IMG/VR virus record: IMGVR_UViG_3300007344_000086
Coordinates: 1 to 37,220 of that record
Strand: one strand, 5' to 3'
Length of the DNA stretch: 37,220 nucleotides
Source of the DNA: a virus
Program-made: the position numbers and the translations under genes
Shown: piece by piece, positions 4,610-34,749 of the stretch
How positions within the stretch are numbered: position 1 is the stretch's first letter
How the letters are laid out: each line of letters opens with the position of its first letter
The notes under the pieces: generated by a model
Told to the model about the DNA's origin: nothing
The model's input: only the letters and a program-made list of their open reading frames with translations
Databases searched by the model: none

Positions 4610-4653
4610 CACCGACATTTTAGCTTGACATTAAGGTTAATTTCTCGTATCCT
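4610..4653 (+). promoter_or_regulatory. Phage-type promoter of the scaffold/capsid operon
   Basis: The conserved box CACCGACATT (4610-4619) is followed by five bases and TTGACA (4625-4630). After 17 bp comes TATCCT (4648-4653). This is one of the best copies of a promoter pattern repeated at 10129, 10234, 18150, 24343, 30757 and 34707. Transcription should begin near 4660, giving a leader of about 205 nt. Confidence 0.75.
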
Positions 4654-4659
4654 TGTCGC

Positions 4660-4865
4660 CATATTCGGAATTGAAGCCAAATCGGGGACCGATTTCGCTC
4701 TTCCAATCTCCATCACATCCGGTTCCGGGGGAACCACCAATTATTCCCCCACTCGATTTCTTCCGTGCGTCCGACACGCCGGAATGAGGAAATCCTCTGG
4801 GAGGGTCCCGGAGGTCACGACTTCGTGCGTGCTTTCTCCAGTCCCTCGGTGAGGAACTTCTTCAA
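4660..4865 (+). promoter_or_regulatory. Structured 5' leader of the scaffold gene
   Basis: The leader has several hairpins: AAATCGG/CCGATTT (4679-4695), GGTTCC/GGAACC (4721-4735) and GGGGGAA/TTCCCCC (4727-4750). The last two share bases 4730-4733 and cannot form together. Near the start codon, CCTC (4844-4847) can pair with the GAGG of the ribosome-binding site (4851-4854). This suggests regulated expression but is only inference. Confidence 0.45.
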
Positions 4866-5648
4866 ATGCCAATCATCAATTTCGACTCCATCGACGCAGT
4901 CCCGGAGGGACTCAAGGAGTTCGCCAAGCAGAACGACGAAACGGGCAAGTTCGCAGTCAATGTGACCGCGACCGTCAAGCTCGACGAGTTCCGCGAAAAG
5001 AACATCGATCTTTCCAAGAAGCTGGAAGCGCAGGCTCCGATCCTCGCTCGCGTCAAGGAAATCGCCGGTGACGACCTCGAAGCCTTCGCCAACGACCTGA
5101 ACGGTCTGCGCGACATCTCGCAGCGCGTGAAGGACGGGGAACTCAAGACCGACGACCAGATCGAGCAGGCTGTGCAGGACCGCATCAAGGTCATGCGCGA
5201 CGGCTACGAAGACAATTCCCGCAGCCTCAAGCGCGAGCTTGACGCTGCGAATGCCAAGGCAGTCACCCTCGTGGAGCGGCTGAACCGGACGCGGATCGAC
5301 AAGGAAGTCACCGCAGCCGTGATCGTCCCCGAGAGCGGTGTCCGCCCCGAAGCCCTGCCGGACGTGCTGGAGCGTGCCTACCGCCTGTTCAAGGTCGAGG
5401 ACGAAAAGCTCATCCCGAAGCGCGGCGAAGCAACGATTTTCGGCGCAAACGGCGCAGATGCGATGACCGTCACCGAGTGGCTGGTCAAGCTCCGCGACGA
5501 AGCGCCGCACTACTTCAAGGGCAACGGTGGCGGTGGCGCTGCCGGCGGCAAGGACGAGAAGATCGGTGGTTTCACCGCTGCTCAGATCGCCGCGATGTCC
5601 CCCCTGCAACGCCTCGAACTGGCGAACAAGGCCAGCGGTAACCGCTGA
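4866..5648 (+). CDS. Probable capsid scaffolding protein
   Basis: A 260-residue, charged, mostly helical protein directly before the major capsid gene, which is where the scaffold is normally encoded. Residues 35-150 are rich in Lys, Glu, Asp and Arg with long helix and coiled-coil character (LSKKLEAQAPILARVKEIAG). A Gly-rich stretch (GNGGGGAAGG) precedes a short C-terminal helical tail (TAAQIAAMSPLQRLELANKA), which in scaffolds often contacts the capsid shell. It resembles DUF6651-type phage proteins. It should guide procapsid assembly and then be lost or cleaved; no protease gene is visible nearby. The start follows GAGGA about 10 bases upstream. Confidence 0.65.
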   Translation: MPIINFDSIDAVPEGLKEFAKQNDETGKFAVNVTATVKLDEFREKNIDLSKKLEAQAPILARVKEIAGDDLEAFANDLNGLRDISQRVKDGELKTDDQIEQAVQDRIKVMRDGYEDNSRSLKRELDAANAKAVTLVERLNRTRIDKEVTAAVIVPESGVRPEALPDVLERAYRLFKVEDEKLIPKRGEATIFGANGADAMTVTEWLVKLRDEAPHYFKGNGGGGAAGGKDEKIGGFTAAQIAAMSPLQRLELANKASGNR

Positions 5649-5781
5649 TCTCCACCACTTAGGTCGGTCGTCGGTTCACCAAGAGATACACCCCGGCTTT
5701 CGGCCGCCTGTCGGGTGTTAGTTCCACCACCACCTCTAGGCGGCCGACGACCACCCCGAACTCACTTAGGAGTTTTTCCAA
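5649..5781 (+). promoter_or_regulatory. Structured leader of the major capsid gene
   Basis: GGTCGTCGG (5666-5674) is complementary to CCGACGACC (5744-5752), and CGGCCGCCT (5701-5709) to AGGCGGCCG (5738-5746). The 3' arms overlap by three bases, so the stems compete at the junction. TTAGGAG, about 10 bases before the ATG, is the ribosome-binding site. No promoter is obvious, so this is probably an intergenic RNA structure that boosts, processes or stabilises the capsid mRNA. Confidence 0.45.
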
Positions 5782-6708
5782 ATGTTGACCCTTCACGAAG
5801 CATCGAAGCTGGTCGATGGGGACCTCAAGCGTCAGGCGATCATCGAAATGTTCGCCGGCTCGACGGACCTCATGGCCGCTCTCCCGCTGATGGACATTCC
5901 GGGCAATAGCTATAGCTATGCTCAGGAAGCCAAGCTGCCGTCCGTCGGCTTCCGTGGCTACAACCAAGGCTACGACGCCTCGATCGGCGTGATCAACCCG
6001 CAGAGCGAAACCCTCCGCATCGCGGGCGGCGAACTCGACGTTGACACCGCGCTGGTCAAGACCCACGGCATCGGCGTTCGCACGCGTCAGGAAGCCATGC
6101 AGGTCAAGGCCATGGGTGCCAAGATCACCTCGGCCTTCATCAACGGCGACGGCGGCGACGGCGTGTCGTTCGACGGTCTGCGCAAGCGCGTGACCGGCTA
6201 CCAGCTTCTGGCGGCAAACGAAGACGCTCCGAACGCGAACGGCGCTCTGTCGCTGGCCACGCTGGACGAAGCGATCGACCGCGTCGATAACCCGACGCAC
6301 ATCATCATGTCCAAGCGTATGCGCAACCTGCTGTCGCAGGCGGCCAAGGACAAGGACGTTGGTGGCGACCTCCAGTGGTCGAAGGATGACTTCGGTCGTC
6401 GCATCGGCTTCTACAACGACCTGCCGATCCTCATCACCGAGGACGACGAAGCCGGTGAGAAGATCATCGACTTCAACGAAGCCGGTCCGGCCGGCGGCAC
6501 CGCGAGCCAGTCGCTGTATGTCGTGAGCTTCGGCGACGGCAAGATCGTCGGCCTCCAGAACGGCATCATGGATGTCCGTGACCTCGGCGAAATCGACGCG
6601 CAGCCGGTCTACCGCACCCGCGTCGAGTGGCTGGTCTCGATGGCCGTCATGCACGGCAAGGCCGTCAGCCGCGTCTGGGGCATCACCAACGCGGCGGTCA
6701 CCCGCTAA
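5782..6708 (+). CDS. Major capsid protein (HK97 fold)
   Basis: A 308-residue capsid subunit. It shows the features of compact HK97-fold capsid proteins without a long delta domain: an N-terminal helix (KLVDGDLKRQAIIEMFAG), a long spine-helix region after the VDTAL segment (RTRQEAMQVKAMGAKITSAFING), then HIIMSKRMRNLL and a C-terminal strand region with LGEIDAQPVYRTRVEW and HGKAVSRVWGI. The start follows TTAGGAG. It lies between the scaffold and a decoration-like protein and has the strongly biased codon use expected of a highly expressed gene. Confidence 0.87.
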   Translation: MLTLHEASKLVDGDLKRQAIIEMFAGSTDLMAALPLMDIPGNSYSYAQEAKLPSVGFRGYNQGYDASIGVINPQSETLRIAGGELDVDTALVKTHGIGVRTRQEAMQVKAMGAKITSAFINGDGGDGVSFDGLRKRVTGYQLLAANEDAPNANGALSLATLDEAIDRVDNPTHIIMSKRMRNLLSQAAKDKDVGGDLQWSKDDFGRRIGFYNDLPILITEDDEAGEKIIDFNEAGPAGGTASQSLYVVSFGDGKIVGLQNGIMDVRDLGEIDAQPVYRTRVEWLVSMAVMHGKAVSRVWGITNAAVTR

Positions 6709-33630: not shown

Positions 33631-33820
33631 ACTCGAATGCCTCAACCGCCCCCGTGGGCAGTTGCCGGCCACCGCCACCGTTGAACAGGTCAACGACCGG
33701 ATCGTCGATATTGACGAAGCCGGGGAAGACTGCCGCCAGAAGCTCGCCCGTGCCCGAATGAAGGTCGAGGTCTTCAATGAGGTGGTCACCGAAATGAACA
33801 AGAAAGCCAAGAAGGACTGA
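33512..33820 (+). CDS. Outer-membrane lipoprotein spanin (Rz1-like), nested in Rz
   Basis: A 102-residue lipoprotein. The signal peptide MSATLKPLALSLILSMSLTA ends in a lipobox (LTAC, Cys21), leaving a mature protein of about 82 residues that would be anchored in the outer membrane. It begins in the +1 frame within the last 119 bases of the i-spanin gene, the classical Rz/Rz1 nested arrangement. An upstream ATG at 33479 is possible but would put a polar stretch before the signal peptide. The mature part is charged and helical (VEVFNEVVTEMNKKAKKD). Confidence 0.82.
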   Translation: MSATLKPLALSLILSMSLTACNPSGTSRLGFLTPQFQSAELECLNRPRGQLPATATVEQVNDRIVDIDEAGEDCRQKLARARMKVEVFNEVVTEMNKKAKKD

Positions 33821-33828
33821 TCCCCGAC

Positions 33829-34704
33829 ATGATCCCGACGACCCTCCTCTCCCCTCTCCTGTCCGCCAAGATTCTCAAGGACTCGATCTCGCCGGAAGGC
33901 GTGCGCCTGACGACCATGGAATTGGTCTACCCGCGATTCATCCATAGCGAACTGATGACCCACCGGGTGTTCAGCCGCAACGCCTCCTCCAGCCGCGCCA
34001 TCCCGACCAAGCGTGCGATCCAGATGATCCGTGACCACCCGGCCCTGCCGGCGTCGTGGCGCATGAACCAGCGCGGTATGCAGGGCTATGTCGTCGCCCC
34101 GCAGGACGTGGCCTTGCAGGCTCAGGAAATCTGGCTCAACGCCATGGAAGCCTCGATCTTCTGGGCCGAGCAGATGGACATGCTGGGCATCCACAAGCAG
34201 GCGGTCAACCGCATCACCGAACCCTACGCCCACATCAAGGTCGTCGTCACCAGCGTCTATTGGGACAACTGGTTCGGCCTGCGGGATCACCCGGCCGCCG
34301 ACCCGACGATCGCCGCTCTCGCCGCCCAGATGAAGGAAGCCTTCGACGCCAGCACGCCCAAGGCGCTGGGTCTGGGCGAATGGCACCTCCCCTACATCAG
34401 CGACGAAGAACTGGCCGTGCTGGGCGTCAGCAATGCGATCAAGGTATCGGCCGCCCGCTGCGCCCGGACCAGCTACAACAACCACGATGGCACCGCCACG
34501 GTGCTGGACAAGGACATCGCTCTGCACGACTCCTTGCTGGTTGACCAGCCGATCCACGCCAGCCCGGCTGAGCATCAGGCAACGCCCGACTCCCGCGTCA
34601 ACCAGCGCGGCATGTGGATGAAGCCGGAACTGCATGGTAACCTCCCCGGCTACATCCAGTATCGCAAGATGCTGCCGAACGAGAACATGGACAAGCTCGT
34701 TTAA
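33829..34704 (+). CDS. thyX: Flavin-dependent thymidylate synthase
   Basis: A 291-residue ThyX, which makes dTMP from dUMP using methylene-tetrahydrofolate, FAD and NADPH. The ThyX motif region is [15 protein letters not shown] (43-57), a phage-type variant of RHRxxSxNxxSxRY. Other conserved features are the helical bundle ([20 protein letters not shown]) and [11 protein letters not shown] in the C-terminal half, where ThyX binds substrate. It supplies thymidine nucleotides for phage replication. The start is 8 bases after the o-spanin stop. ligA follows under its own promoter. Confidence 0.88.
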
Positions 34705-34706
34705 CA

Positions 34707-34749
34707 CACCGACATTCTTACTTGACACAATGTCCCGTCATGCTAGTCA
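34707..34749 (+). promoter_or_regulatory. Phage-type promoter of ligA
   Basis: CACCGACATT (34707-34716), five bases, TTGACA (34722-34727), then TAGTCA (34744-34749) at 16 bp with an extended TGC before it. The -10 lies in the loop of a 12-bp inverted repeat (34731-34759), which could be a repressor site. Transcription should begin near 34756 and ligA starts at 34779. Confidence 0.72.

Follow-up and report, generated by a model that had tools for sequence, protein, structure and literature searches.

A 15-bp box, CACCG[AC]CATTYTNRC, recurs at a fixed distance before the -35 element of promoters in a CbK-like siphophage, and at orthologous promoters of its relatives the box is replaced lineage by lineage while the spacer and -10 are kept. 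With a probability of about 0.42, we infer that a regulator encoded by the phage and specific to its lineage has the boxes as operators, that a CI/LexA-like protein is the best candidate for it and that it would act as a repressor-type gate; both the binding of this protein to the box and its mainly repressive effect are predictions from sequence. The window, a stretch of 37,220 nucleotides, is part of a 151-kb contig of the phage (contig G001), which infects alphaproteobacteria. Boxes were counted in four genomes (the window's contig, XM05, G002 and G003), and counts for the window and for G001 overlap because G001 contains the window.

The box and its register with promoter elements

In the window, the pattern CACCGACATT-N5-TTGACA was found three times exactly and ten times with at most 3 mismatches, in every case on the + strand, against a mean of 0.22 and a largest count of 2 in 100 dinucleotide shuffles, and the reversed pattern gave no match in the window. 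These scans confirm the recurrent box at fixed spacing before a -35 that had been noticed in the sequence-only reading. That reading took the five intervening bases for a plain spacer; the distance is indeed fixed, but the sequence is not free, since a T and a C within it are each conserved in 28 of the 35 exact matches (which include a few from unrelated AT-rich contigs), and box and spacer together are one 15-bp element. In the exact-match alignment no column 5' of the box exceeds 0.46 bit, contrary to the long upstream conservation that had been proposed. Identical-context duplicates were removed from this alignment, the matrix training, the offset count, the arm covariation and the class census.

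The PWM was trained on sites picked with TTGACA included, so that full-matrix scans favour boxes adjoining a -35 (class A); box-only scans used 15 columns of the full matrix. At scores of 12 or more, the PWM gave 39 sites in XM05 and 51 in G001, both of which belonged to its training set, compared with 1-2 in each of two Markov shuffles per genome. The non-coding part of XM05, 14.6% of the genome, holds 39 of its 47 box-only matches (score >=12). The motif search over the genome and its relatives, a check that the earlier reading had suggested, returned dozens of copies, with 140 box matches in the four genomes. TTGACA (<=1 mismatch) lies at offset 0 from the box in 55 of the 140, any other offset from 1 to 37 is never taken by more than 4, and the commonest hexamer 3' of the box is the consensus -35, TTGACA (42 of 140). 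This fixed register bears out the view that the element goes beyond a plain sigma-70 promoter.

Seventy-nine of the 140 matches adjoin a -35 (50, class A) or sit behind one inside the spacer (29, class B), and the 61 others include inverted, promoterless, weak and coding ones. The consensus -35 of class A is partly a product of the definition, which asks for TTGACA with at most one mismatch after the box. For class B, a TTGACA-like hexamer (<=1 mismatch) whose end lies 1-3 bases upstream of the box was enough; at least 3 of the 29 rows, including the window's tail-tube site, have TTGACA next and belong more naturally in class A, and a few are without a clear -10. From the sequence, the dyad centre is near -41 in class A and near -18 in class B. 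Paired boxes are mostly 22-23 bp apart, with the upstream box scoring higher in 11 of 15 tandem pairs. Inverted copies are a minority, some of them over the -10, and promoterless clusters are present; because class B and promoterless copies exist, the box is separable from the -35. In XM05, a gene on the same strand starts within 405 bp of every one of the 12 class A sites, and the presumed early region (76.9-96.7 kb) holds no box-only match.

The box contains an imperfect dyad, G-NN-ATTYT-NN-C. An outer dyad spanning the -35 (CAC...GTG) was not adopted; it is weak in class A, with G at column 23 in 27 of 50. No covariation between the dyad arms was detected within the window's lineage, where 144, 1947 and 768 of 2000 shuffles gave counts at least as high as those observed. 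The covariation count of the outer pair in Lacusarx is reached by 47 of 2000 shuffles; with lineages pooled, the counts are reached by 15 of 2000 for the outer pair and 1 of 2000 for one inner pair, and the other inner pair does not covary (1644 of 2000).

The sites in the window are listed below, with promoter elements taken from the sequence (by eye at the ligase gene).

1081-1095, + strand: degenerate box before phoH (ORF 1113-1979), without adjoining TTGACA; the same site as G001 139051
2042-2056, + strand: degenerate box before the portal gene (2420), with a boxless TTGACA 36 bp further downstream
4610-4624, + strand: class A box, exact match, before scaffold/capsid ORFs 4866-5648 and 5782-6708
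4625-4653, + strand: -35 TTGACA, 17-bp spacer, -10 TATCCT
10129-10143, + strand: class A box, exact match, before the tail-tube gene
10144-10172, + strand: -35 TTGACA, 17-bp spacer, -10 TACCAT
10234-10248, + strand: lone box, 1 mismatch, then TTAACA, in the tail-tube gene leader
18150-18164, + strand: class A box (GACCG), 1 mismatch, before ORF 18221-18832
18165-18193, + strand: -35 TTGACA, 2 bp, class B box 18173-18187, -10 TAGACG
24343-24357, + strand: degenerate box, 3 mismatches, before the tail gene at 24357
30757-30771, + strand: class A box (CTCCG), 1 mismatch, before tail-fibre-like ORF 30821-32344
30772-30800, + strand: -35 TTGACA, 2 bp, class B box 30780-30794, -10 TAGACT
34707-34721, + strand: class A box, exact match, before the NAD-dependent ligase gene
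34722-34764, + strand: -35 TTGACA, followed by a GC-rich hairpin whose terminal T run overlaps the -10 position

Scaffold and capsid genes were assigned by PHROGs, and the ligase gene probably starts at the ATG near 34779. Among the sites first listed, those at 4610, 10129, 18150, 30757 and 34707 hold up with their promoters; the box at 10234 is there, but no -35 or -10 was seen in register with it. The census rule files the 10129 box under class B because TTGCCA precedes it. At 18173 and 30780, 23 bp after the first boxes, second copies lie between -35 and -10. The weaker copies reported at 24343 and 2042 are indeed degenerate boxes, the latter followed by ACGACA and scoring 18.7 by PWM as the same site at G001 138090. 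A box also lies upstream of phoH in XM05. A match with 3 mismatches at 25507, inside a tail gene, may be due to chance. Position 7784, described as a boxless-promoter copy, was rejected as a family member; the ATTYT..C core is missing there, and the 9-mer has probably arisen by chance; CACCGACAT with at most one mismatch occurs 34 times against 11.3 expected. Boxes are not confined to the starts of structural units; in XM05 they also precede replication and nucleotide-metabolism genes.

Replacement of the box between lineages and a candidate regulator

Orthologous promoters were scanned with a strict pattern that prints 'none' for some box-carrying promoters, and two tail queries partly match the same gene; L02 was covered to base 150000 of 150063. 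Class A boxes precede the scaffold and the tail-tube gene, each in 7 of 8 genomes, and are found at the ligase promoter of XM05, G003 and G026 as well, where a stretch similar to 34722-34764 is seen in XM05 and L02. Placement class is often conserved. ORF 18221-18832, the orthologue of XM05_73, has a class B box alone in XM05, G003 and G002 and a class A box in L02 and G026, and the ribonucleotide reductase (RNR) promoter of XM05, G001, G003 and L02 has a box before TATACT behind a TTGC-type -35, which the strict pattern missed.

At these promoters the box is mostly GCAATTTTTGC in L02 and GTTATTTTAAC in Lacusarx. Box identity is 0.76 when different promoters of one lineage are compared and 0.58 when one promoter is compared across lineages, and the corresponding values for spacer and -10 are 0.37 and 0.57. 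None of 2000 permutations, which ignore phylogeny, reaches either effect, box following lineage or spacer following locus. The comparison covers 41 class A rows of the orthologous promoter table, after setting aside class B, the portal, ligase and exo promoters, the class A entries for tail70 and, in L02, for X139, as well as the second box at the tail-tube gene. Because the box is replaced by lineage while spacer and -10 are conserved, it is apparently a site for a trans-acting, phage-specific protein, as the sequence-only reading had supposed. In RXM, visual inspection alone pointed to a box, one base closer to the -35; the matrix found 0 sites there, and RXM enters none of the box statistics. 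A shared box was not seen among 5 promoter candidates of Mesorhizobium phage Cp1R7A-A1. A scan of 84,980 species genomes gave 5 stretches with the exact box and its -35, fewer than a rough chance expectation of about 15, with no Sphingomonadales title among them; a host-genome regulon was rejected, and the box with its -35 is not a host-chromosome element.

About 1.7 kb outside the window, beyond its right end, a CI/LexA-like gene is flanked by the ribonucleotide reductase genes on one side and ligase on the other. Its product has a Cro/CI-type HTH (PF01381, 36.3 bits against a cut-off of 23), and XM05, L02, Lacusarx and RXM have no other HTH_3 match. The regulator was found in these four, G001, G003, G026 and six further contigs; its profile matched 10 of 29 records, the misses including fragments or chance-hit contigs and G002, which carries window-type boxes, has no HTH_3 match and is also without RNR, ligase and polymerase genes. 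The recognition helix reads RGTI[VN][AS]YE in 7 rows from contigs with window-type boxes, TRQS[IV]RNYE in L02 and G026, with GCAATTTTTGC-type boxes, and RATIVQYE in Lacusarx, with GTTATTTTAAC boxes; this grouping could come from shared ancestry, as only about four lineages are involved. Foldseek gave LexA and lambda/186 repressors as best PDB matches (e.g. 6a2t, TMt 0.70 over 89 columns) for an AF2 model that is poor, with a mean pLDDT of 47 and 70-84 over roughly residues 175-262. LexA and CI proteins autocleave by way of a G-x-S-M motif and the lysine of VKR. The window phage's regulator has no match to Pfam peptidase S24, and an alignment by eye, a weak test, showed neither a G-x-S-M motif nor a lysine at the VKR position. 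GAATC stands in the spacer of 6 of 11 listed regulator promoters, as in presumed early promoters, and the regulator may therefore appear before its targets. A related-locus search that started from the RXM regulator gave no relative. Another candidate box reader, the L02 'RNA polymerase alpha C-terminal domain' protein, was rejected; it has no Pfam match and matches XM05_48 and RXM_121, which are annotated as aminoacyl-tRNA synthetases.

Repression, activation and other readings

The boxes would thus be operators embedded in ordinary sigma-70 promoters across the phage genome, at which a CI-like dimer may bind the dyad in class A or class B position or inverted over the -10. Most likely this protein, a repressor or a regulator of the immunity type, would gate the promoters of replication and virion genes by polymerase occlusion, at single sites or at pairs whose geometry is like that of lambda CI operators. 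Since consensus TTGACA is the commonest hexamer after the box, such promoters should not need help. Class B, inverted and promoterless boxes make a repressor or dual regulator fit at least as well as an activator, and repression is favoured because class B and inverted boxes overlap polymerase territory and because the changes of box specificity resemble immunity divergence in Cluster A mycobacteriophages (PMC6550527). The authors of RXM name integrase and repressor as hallmarks of lysogeny (PMC8953757). Against a lysogeny repressor, the presumed early region of XM05 is without boxes, unlike the targets of such a protein, and the publication on L02 calls this phage lytic (PMC9127768). A repressor would not need a register with -35 and -10 as strict as the exact 0 bp observed, and a catalytic Ser or Lys that would allow derepression of the LexA/CI type is not evident. 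The proposal is further weakened by the missing regulator match in G002, by the lack of arm covariation in the window's lineage and by the poor AF2 model.

The main alternative, somewhat less probable and in line with the activator proposed in the sequence-only reading, is that the CI-like regulator is mainly an activator, contacting sigma region 4 from class A sites at about -41, as lambda CI does from OR2 at PRM, and shutting promoters off from class B or inverted sites at high concentration. Promoters with class A alone (head genes) would then stay on and paired ones (several replication genes) would pulse. The exact register, the centres of the two classes and the spacing of pairs, the stronger upstream box, the box-free early region, the GAATC spacers of the regulator promoters and the conserved placement at orthologous promoters are all consistent with activation. 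Most activator-dependent phage promoters, however, lack a consensus -35, which class A promoters carry. When the regulators were aligned to the residues of the lambda CI activating patch, the acidic ones were not both kept in L02, Lacusarx or RXM, and a fast change of specificity is unexpected for a purely positive lytic regulator. Rather unlikely, in our view, is a repressor-like protein serving as the global switch of a large lytic phage, activating at the -35 and shutting off at the -10, with placement encoding timing and with code and sites replaced wholesale between close relatives.

Less probable still is a box reader that is another phage protein (not HTH_3) or a host factor differing between hosts. 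Twenty conserved proteins of unknown function were scanned, drawn from 74 conserved in XM05, G001, G003, L02 and Lacusarx, and because 11 of them have no Pfam match at E<=0.05, an unrecognised DNA-binding protein is possible; G002, with boxes and no HTH_3 match, points the same way, although its contig also lacks the other genes named above. A host factor sits poorly with XM05 and L02, whose hosts are by records of the same genus yet whose boxes differ at orthologous promoters, and with the lack of box and -35 in Sphingomonadales genomes of the collection scan. The CtrA site TTAA-N7-TTAA is absent from the window and occurs 7 times in XM05, all between 70 and 100 kb, and a phage GcrA homologue (PF07750) was found only in CcrRogue, 1 of 9 records.

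The modified RNA polymerase offered by the sequence-only reading, or a phage sigma factor, reading the box as an extended -35, is very improbable. The fixed distance would suit it, and Lacusarx gp182 has a sigma region 4, with an RXM match over the cut-off. Sigma70_r2, however, matches 0 of 9 phage records; sigma region 4 appears in 4 of the 9 (2 over cut-off), none carrying the window-type box, and Sigma70_r4 gave nothing at E<=0.01 in the window's contig, XM05, G003, G002 and L02. The box also adjoins the -10 and occurs without promoter elements. Lacusarx 'SigA' was rejected as a general reader; its sigma region 4 lies only at the C-terminal end, a part that is not general because tblastn matches elsewhere lie within residues 5-145. 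Chance, or recent copying of one promoter cassette, is a negligible explanation: tandem copies exist and one box promoter is duplicated in G001, but the shuffle and reversed-pattern controls, the divergent flanks around boxes and the same placement at orthologous promoters of genomes with widely differing shared proteins all speak against it.

Significance and comparison with known systems

If the boxes form an immunity system, they would bear on the question, raised by the authors of RXM, whether such phages enter lysogeny (PMC8953757). A literature search found no printed description of such promoters in CbK-like phages. A position-fixed box whose letters change together across promoters is a direct handle on its regulator and lets promoters of uncultured relatives be called from sequence alone, and the series of boxes is natural material for the joint change of specificity in a protein and dozens of sites.

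The phage class II activators T4 MotA and Mu Mor have sites that directly precede or replace the -35 of phage promoters, a position like that of the box. MotA and Mor promoters are without a good -35, whereas box promoters have a consensus one and the box also lies inside the spacer. The Mor dimer site has inverted repeats centred at -43.5 (PMC4390567). TgrL of phiCbK is by description an early XRE-family regulator of a CbK-like phage, as the candidate may be, but the targets described for it are host genes, of which it represses 92 of 99 direct ones, and the available portion of that account describes no phage box (PMC10688885).

Cluster A mycobacteriophages (L5, Bxb1, Trixie) have a repressor and stoperators, up to about 30 short sites; the boxes are likewise many, genome-wide, short and mostly oriented with transcription, and their lineage-specific form recalls the phage-specific stoperator consensus that changes with the repressor (PMC6550527). 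Stoperators differ in being mostly not promoter-associated and in blocking elongation (PMC6550527), whereas most good box sites adjoin the -35 or sit in the spacer in fixed register, and the repressor is only putative here. Lambda CI, finally, has a few sites instead of dozens, and the candidate is without evident autocleavage residues and L02 is described as lytic, but the two have in common an HTH_3 regulator, here with a C-terminal domain putatively of the LexA/CI type, and paired sites 22-23 bp apart, one by the -35 and one in the spacer.

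Box occurrence and placement

The window, a 37-kb IMG/VR virus record, matches part of the 151,382-base contig G001 with 99.98% identity across 37,198 bases, and its genes include phoH, portal, scaffold, capsid, tail and ligase. In the phage collection its nearest named relatives are the Erythrobacter phages XM05 and vB_EliS-L02 (L02), Sphingobium phage Lacusarx and Citromicrobium phage RXM, which are grouped as CbK-like siphophages in the available text of the L02 and Lacusarx papers (PMC9127768, PMC5648845). The sequence-only reading had proposed that a repeated box, CACCGACATT, followed after five bases by TTGACA, marks a phage promoter, and the pattern is present where proposed, with 3 exact copies and 10 in all with up to three mismatches; every one is on the + strand, and the number expected is 0.22. 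Matches with at most two mismatches were found in 25 of the 28 records reached through loci, although in several records a single match is probably due to chance; L02, Lacusarx and RXM have no such match to the window-type pattern. The reversed pattern, used as a control, gave one match over all 28 records.

XM05, G001 and the related contigs G002 and G003 served to train a weight matrix, which at a score of at least 12 found 12 sites in the window, 51 in G001 (window included), 39 in XM05, 38 in G003 and 25 in G002; two Markov shuffles of these sequences gave between 0 and 2 each. L02 has 17 sites and Lacusarx 11 (shuffles 1 to 3), and RXM has none at this score.

The conserved unit is 15 bp, [CG]ACCG[AC]CATTYTNRC; strong conservation was not found upstream of it, contrary to the long upstream conservation that had been claimed. 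When four genomes were scanned for the box only, 140 distinct sites were obtained. TTGACA (at most one mismatch) lies directly behind the box at 55 of these (offset 0), every other offset from 1 to 37 having at most 4, or ends ahead of the box by 2 bases (19), 1 base (8) or 3 bases (2), the remaining offsets having at most 2. TATAAT-like hexamers (at most two mismatches) peak at offset 0 (17), where they are the -10 of class B, and at offset 23 (17), where they are the -10 of class A behind a 17-bp spacer; elsewhere there are at most 10. These -35 and -10 peaks thus define two main placements: in class A the box abuts the -35, and in class B the order is -35, 1-3 bp, box and -10. Sorting by rule gave 50 class A, 29 class B and 61 other sites, although at least 3 of the 29 class B rows are better read as A. 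The last group includes inverted boxes lying across the -10 (such as G001 88622+/88676- and XM05 22049+/22103-), promoterless clusters in XM05, G003 and G002, and weak or coding matches.

Boxes paired on the same strand are mostly spaced by 22 bp (10) or 23 bp (8), with three pairs each at 20 and 21 bp, and the upstream box of a tandem pair has the higher score in 11 of 15. Non-coding bases make up 14.6% of the XM05 genome, yet 39 of its 47 box matches lie there. All 12 XM05 class A sites have a same-strand gene within 405 bp downstream, and the genes behind them include phosphatase, polymerase, exonuclease, dUTPase, HslV, ligase, scaffold, portal and tail tube. Further features of these regions are as follows.

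XM05 96732-97173, both strands: cluster of 4-6 promoterless boxes, in a non-coding gap adjoining the terminase gene
G003 71230-71406, both strands: cluster of 4-6 promoterless boxes
G002 78710-78886, both strands: cluster of 4-6 promoterless boxes
G001 88622 and 89357 (locus L075 8622-8676 and 9357-9411): class A plus inverted-box promoter, present twice, 735 bp apart, with identical letters over the printed stretch
Window 7865-8311: ORF resembling an HNH-endonuclease, within the head gene module
Window 34722-34770: terminator-like hairpin and T run right behind the -35, overlapping the ligase promoter (by eye); the XM05 and L02 ligase promoters have a similar stretch

The promoterless clusters are possibly sites of replication, packaging or silencing, and the letters of the twin G001 promoters suggest a local duplication.

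Box replacement between lineages

At the same register, the box is mostly GCAATTTTTGC in L02 and mostly GTTATTTTAAC in Lacusarx, and the related contig G026 pairs an L02-like regulator with boxes of the L02 type. The scaffold gene has a class A box ahead of it in 7 of 8 genomes, and so does the tail-tube gene (7 of 8), RXM being the sole miss at both, with a one-base-shifted box there by eye. Among 41 class A rows, box identity was 0.76 for different promoters of the same lineage versus 0.58 for the same promoter in different lineages, whereas identity from the spacer to the -10 was 0.37 versus 0.57, and for both differences 0 of 2000 permutations were as large. The box therefore follows lineage, and the spacer and -10 follow the orthologous promoter. 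Such concerted replacement is the trace expected from a trans-acting factor of changing specificity.

Placement is often, but not always, kept across orthologous promoters. For the XM05_69-type tail gene, the promoter has both boxes (A+B) in the window's phage and is class B in XM05, G003, G002, L02 and G026, and no box was seen at it in Lacusarx or RXM; for the XM05_73-type gene, the window's phage again has A+B, XM05, G003 and G002 have B, and L02 and G026 have A.

Other repeated promoters were also observed. The box-free region of XM05 (locus L009, 78.5-96.5 kb, minus strand) has 24 copies, by pattern, of GTGGAAAAAGTGC-TTGACC, mostly with GAATCGGTGG and CGAATCACC behind, in which an A-tract adjoins the -35, and both the spacer and the downstream stretch contain GANTC sites; a comparable set in RXM carries GAATC in the spacer. 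In the distant relative CcrRogue (loci L159-L170, record positions 115-196 kb), the box directly against the -35 is one of its own, of the TTGGCGYGAGAGTG-TTGACA type; the promoter before the scaffold gene has GTCGTGAATC-TTGACA in its place, and at 4 of 27 promoter candidates the inverted box fills the spacer.

Candidate regulator and sign of control

The proposed reader of the box is a CI/LexA-like protein encoded between the RNR genes and ligase. It is the single HTH_3 match in each of XM05, L02, Lacusarx and RXM (226-273 aa), and is also present in G001, G003, G026 and six other contigs; HTH_3 matches number three in G003, two in G001, two in G026 and five in CcrRogue, with none in G002. Of 29 records searched with a profile, 10 matched the regulator; the 19 misses include G002, from which the RNR, ligase and polymerase genes are absent too, and contigs that may be incomplete. 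Caulobacter, Mesorhizobium and Microcystis phage records contain distant homologues, with E values between 1e-8 and 1e-24. The HTH scores above the Pfam cut-off, and the best PDB folds for a poor AF2 model are LexA and the lambda/186 repressors.

The putative recognition helix reads RGTI[VN][AS]YE where the contigs have boxes of the window type (7 rows), TRQS[IV]RNYE in L02 and G026, RATIVQYE in Lacusarx and RASMVHYE in RXM, so that the predicted helices group as the boxes do. Between XM05 and L02 the regulator is 40% identical, among the 7 of 74 conserved proteins at or below 40% (rounded down). The site core, G-NN-ATTYT-NN-C, forms an imperfect dyad whose arms are perfect in the main boxes of L02 and Lacusarx; the arms covary between lineages only, and at some positions, which leaves three lineages as the basis for the dyad.

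A repressor-type gate, in which the regulator would control promoters through the predicted box sites, is slightly ahead of a dual or activating role, the main rival. The frequent consensus -35, the boxes within the spacer or across the -10, and the protein family count for repression or immunity, as does the gene content of integrase plus repressor noted by the RXM authors in the available text (PMC8953757). Activation is supported by the exact register of the box, at about -41, by the presumed early region of XM05 (76.9-96.7 kb), which is box-free in the box-only scan and has one weak opposite-strand match (94776) with the full matrix, and by GAATC in the spacer of regulator promoters (6 of 11 printed cases), as in presumed early promoters. 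The modified polymerase also suggested by the sequence-only reading, or a phage sigma factor, is an unlikely reader of the box, since Sigma70_r2 was found in 0 of 9 records and Sigma70_r4 matched in Lacusarx and RXM, fell below the cut-off in G026 and CcrRogue, and had no match in the window's contig, XM05, G003, G002 or L02. The box with its -35 occurs in 5 stretches in total of the genome collection, none of them in Sphingomonadales-titled genomes. An L02 gene (locus L061, 41542-42063, minus strand) was annotated and published under the name RNA polymerase alpha C-terminal domain protein; its product has no Pfam hit, the XM05 and RXM proteins that it matches carry an aminoacyl-tRNA synthetase annotation, and the label is probably a misannotation.

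Relation to known systems

In the available text, the promoters reported for Lacusarx are software-predicted only (PMC5648845), the word "promoter" appears in the L02 paper solely within a reference (PMC9127768) and it is absent from the RXM paper (PMC8953757). A literature search for CACCGACATT gave only unrelated subjects, by title, among the matches listed. The available text of a CtrA paper concerns TTAA-N7-TTAA sites (PMC9437464), none of which lies within the window. Phage regulators with many sites are already known; what seems new is the architecture in CbK-like phages, with the box fixed directly against the -35 and -10 and replaced between relatives. The change of box specificity is like that described in the available text on Cluster A mycobacteriophage immunity (PMC6550527), and this too counts for repression or immunity.
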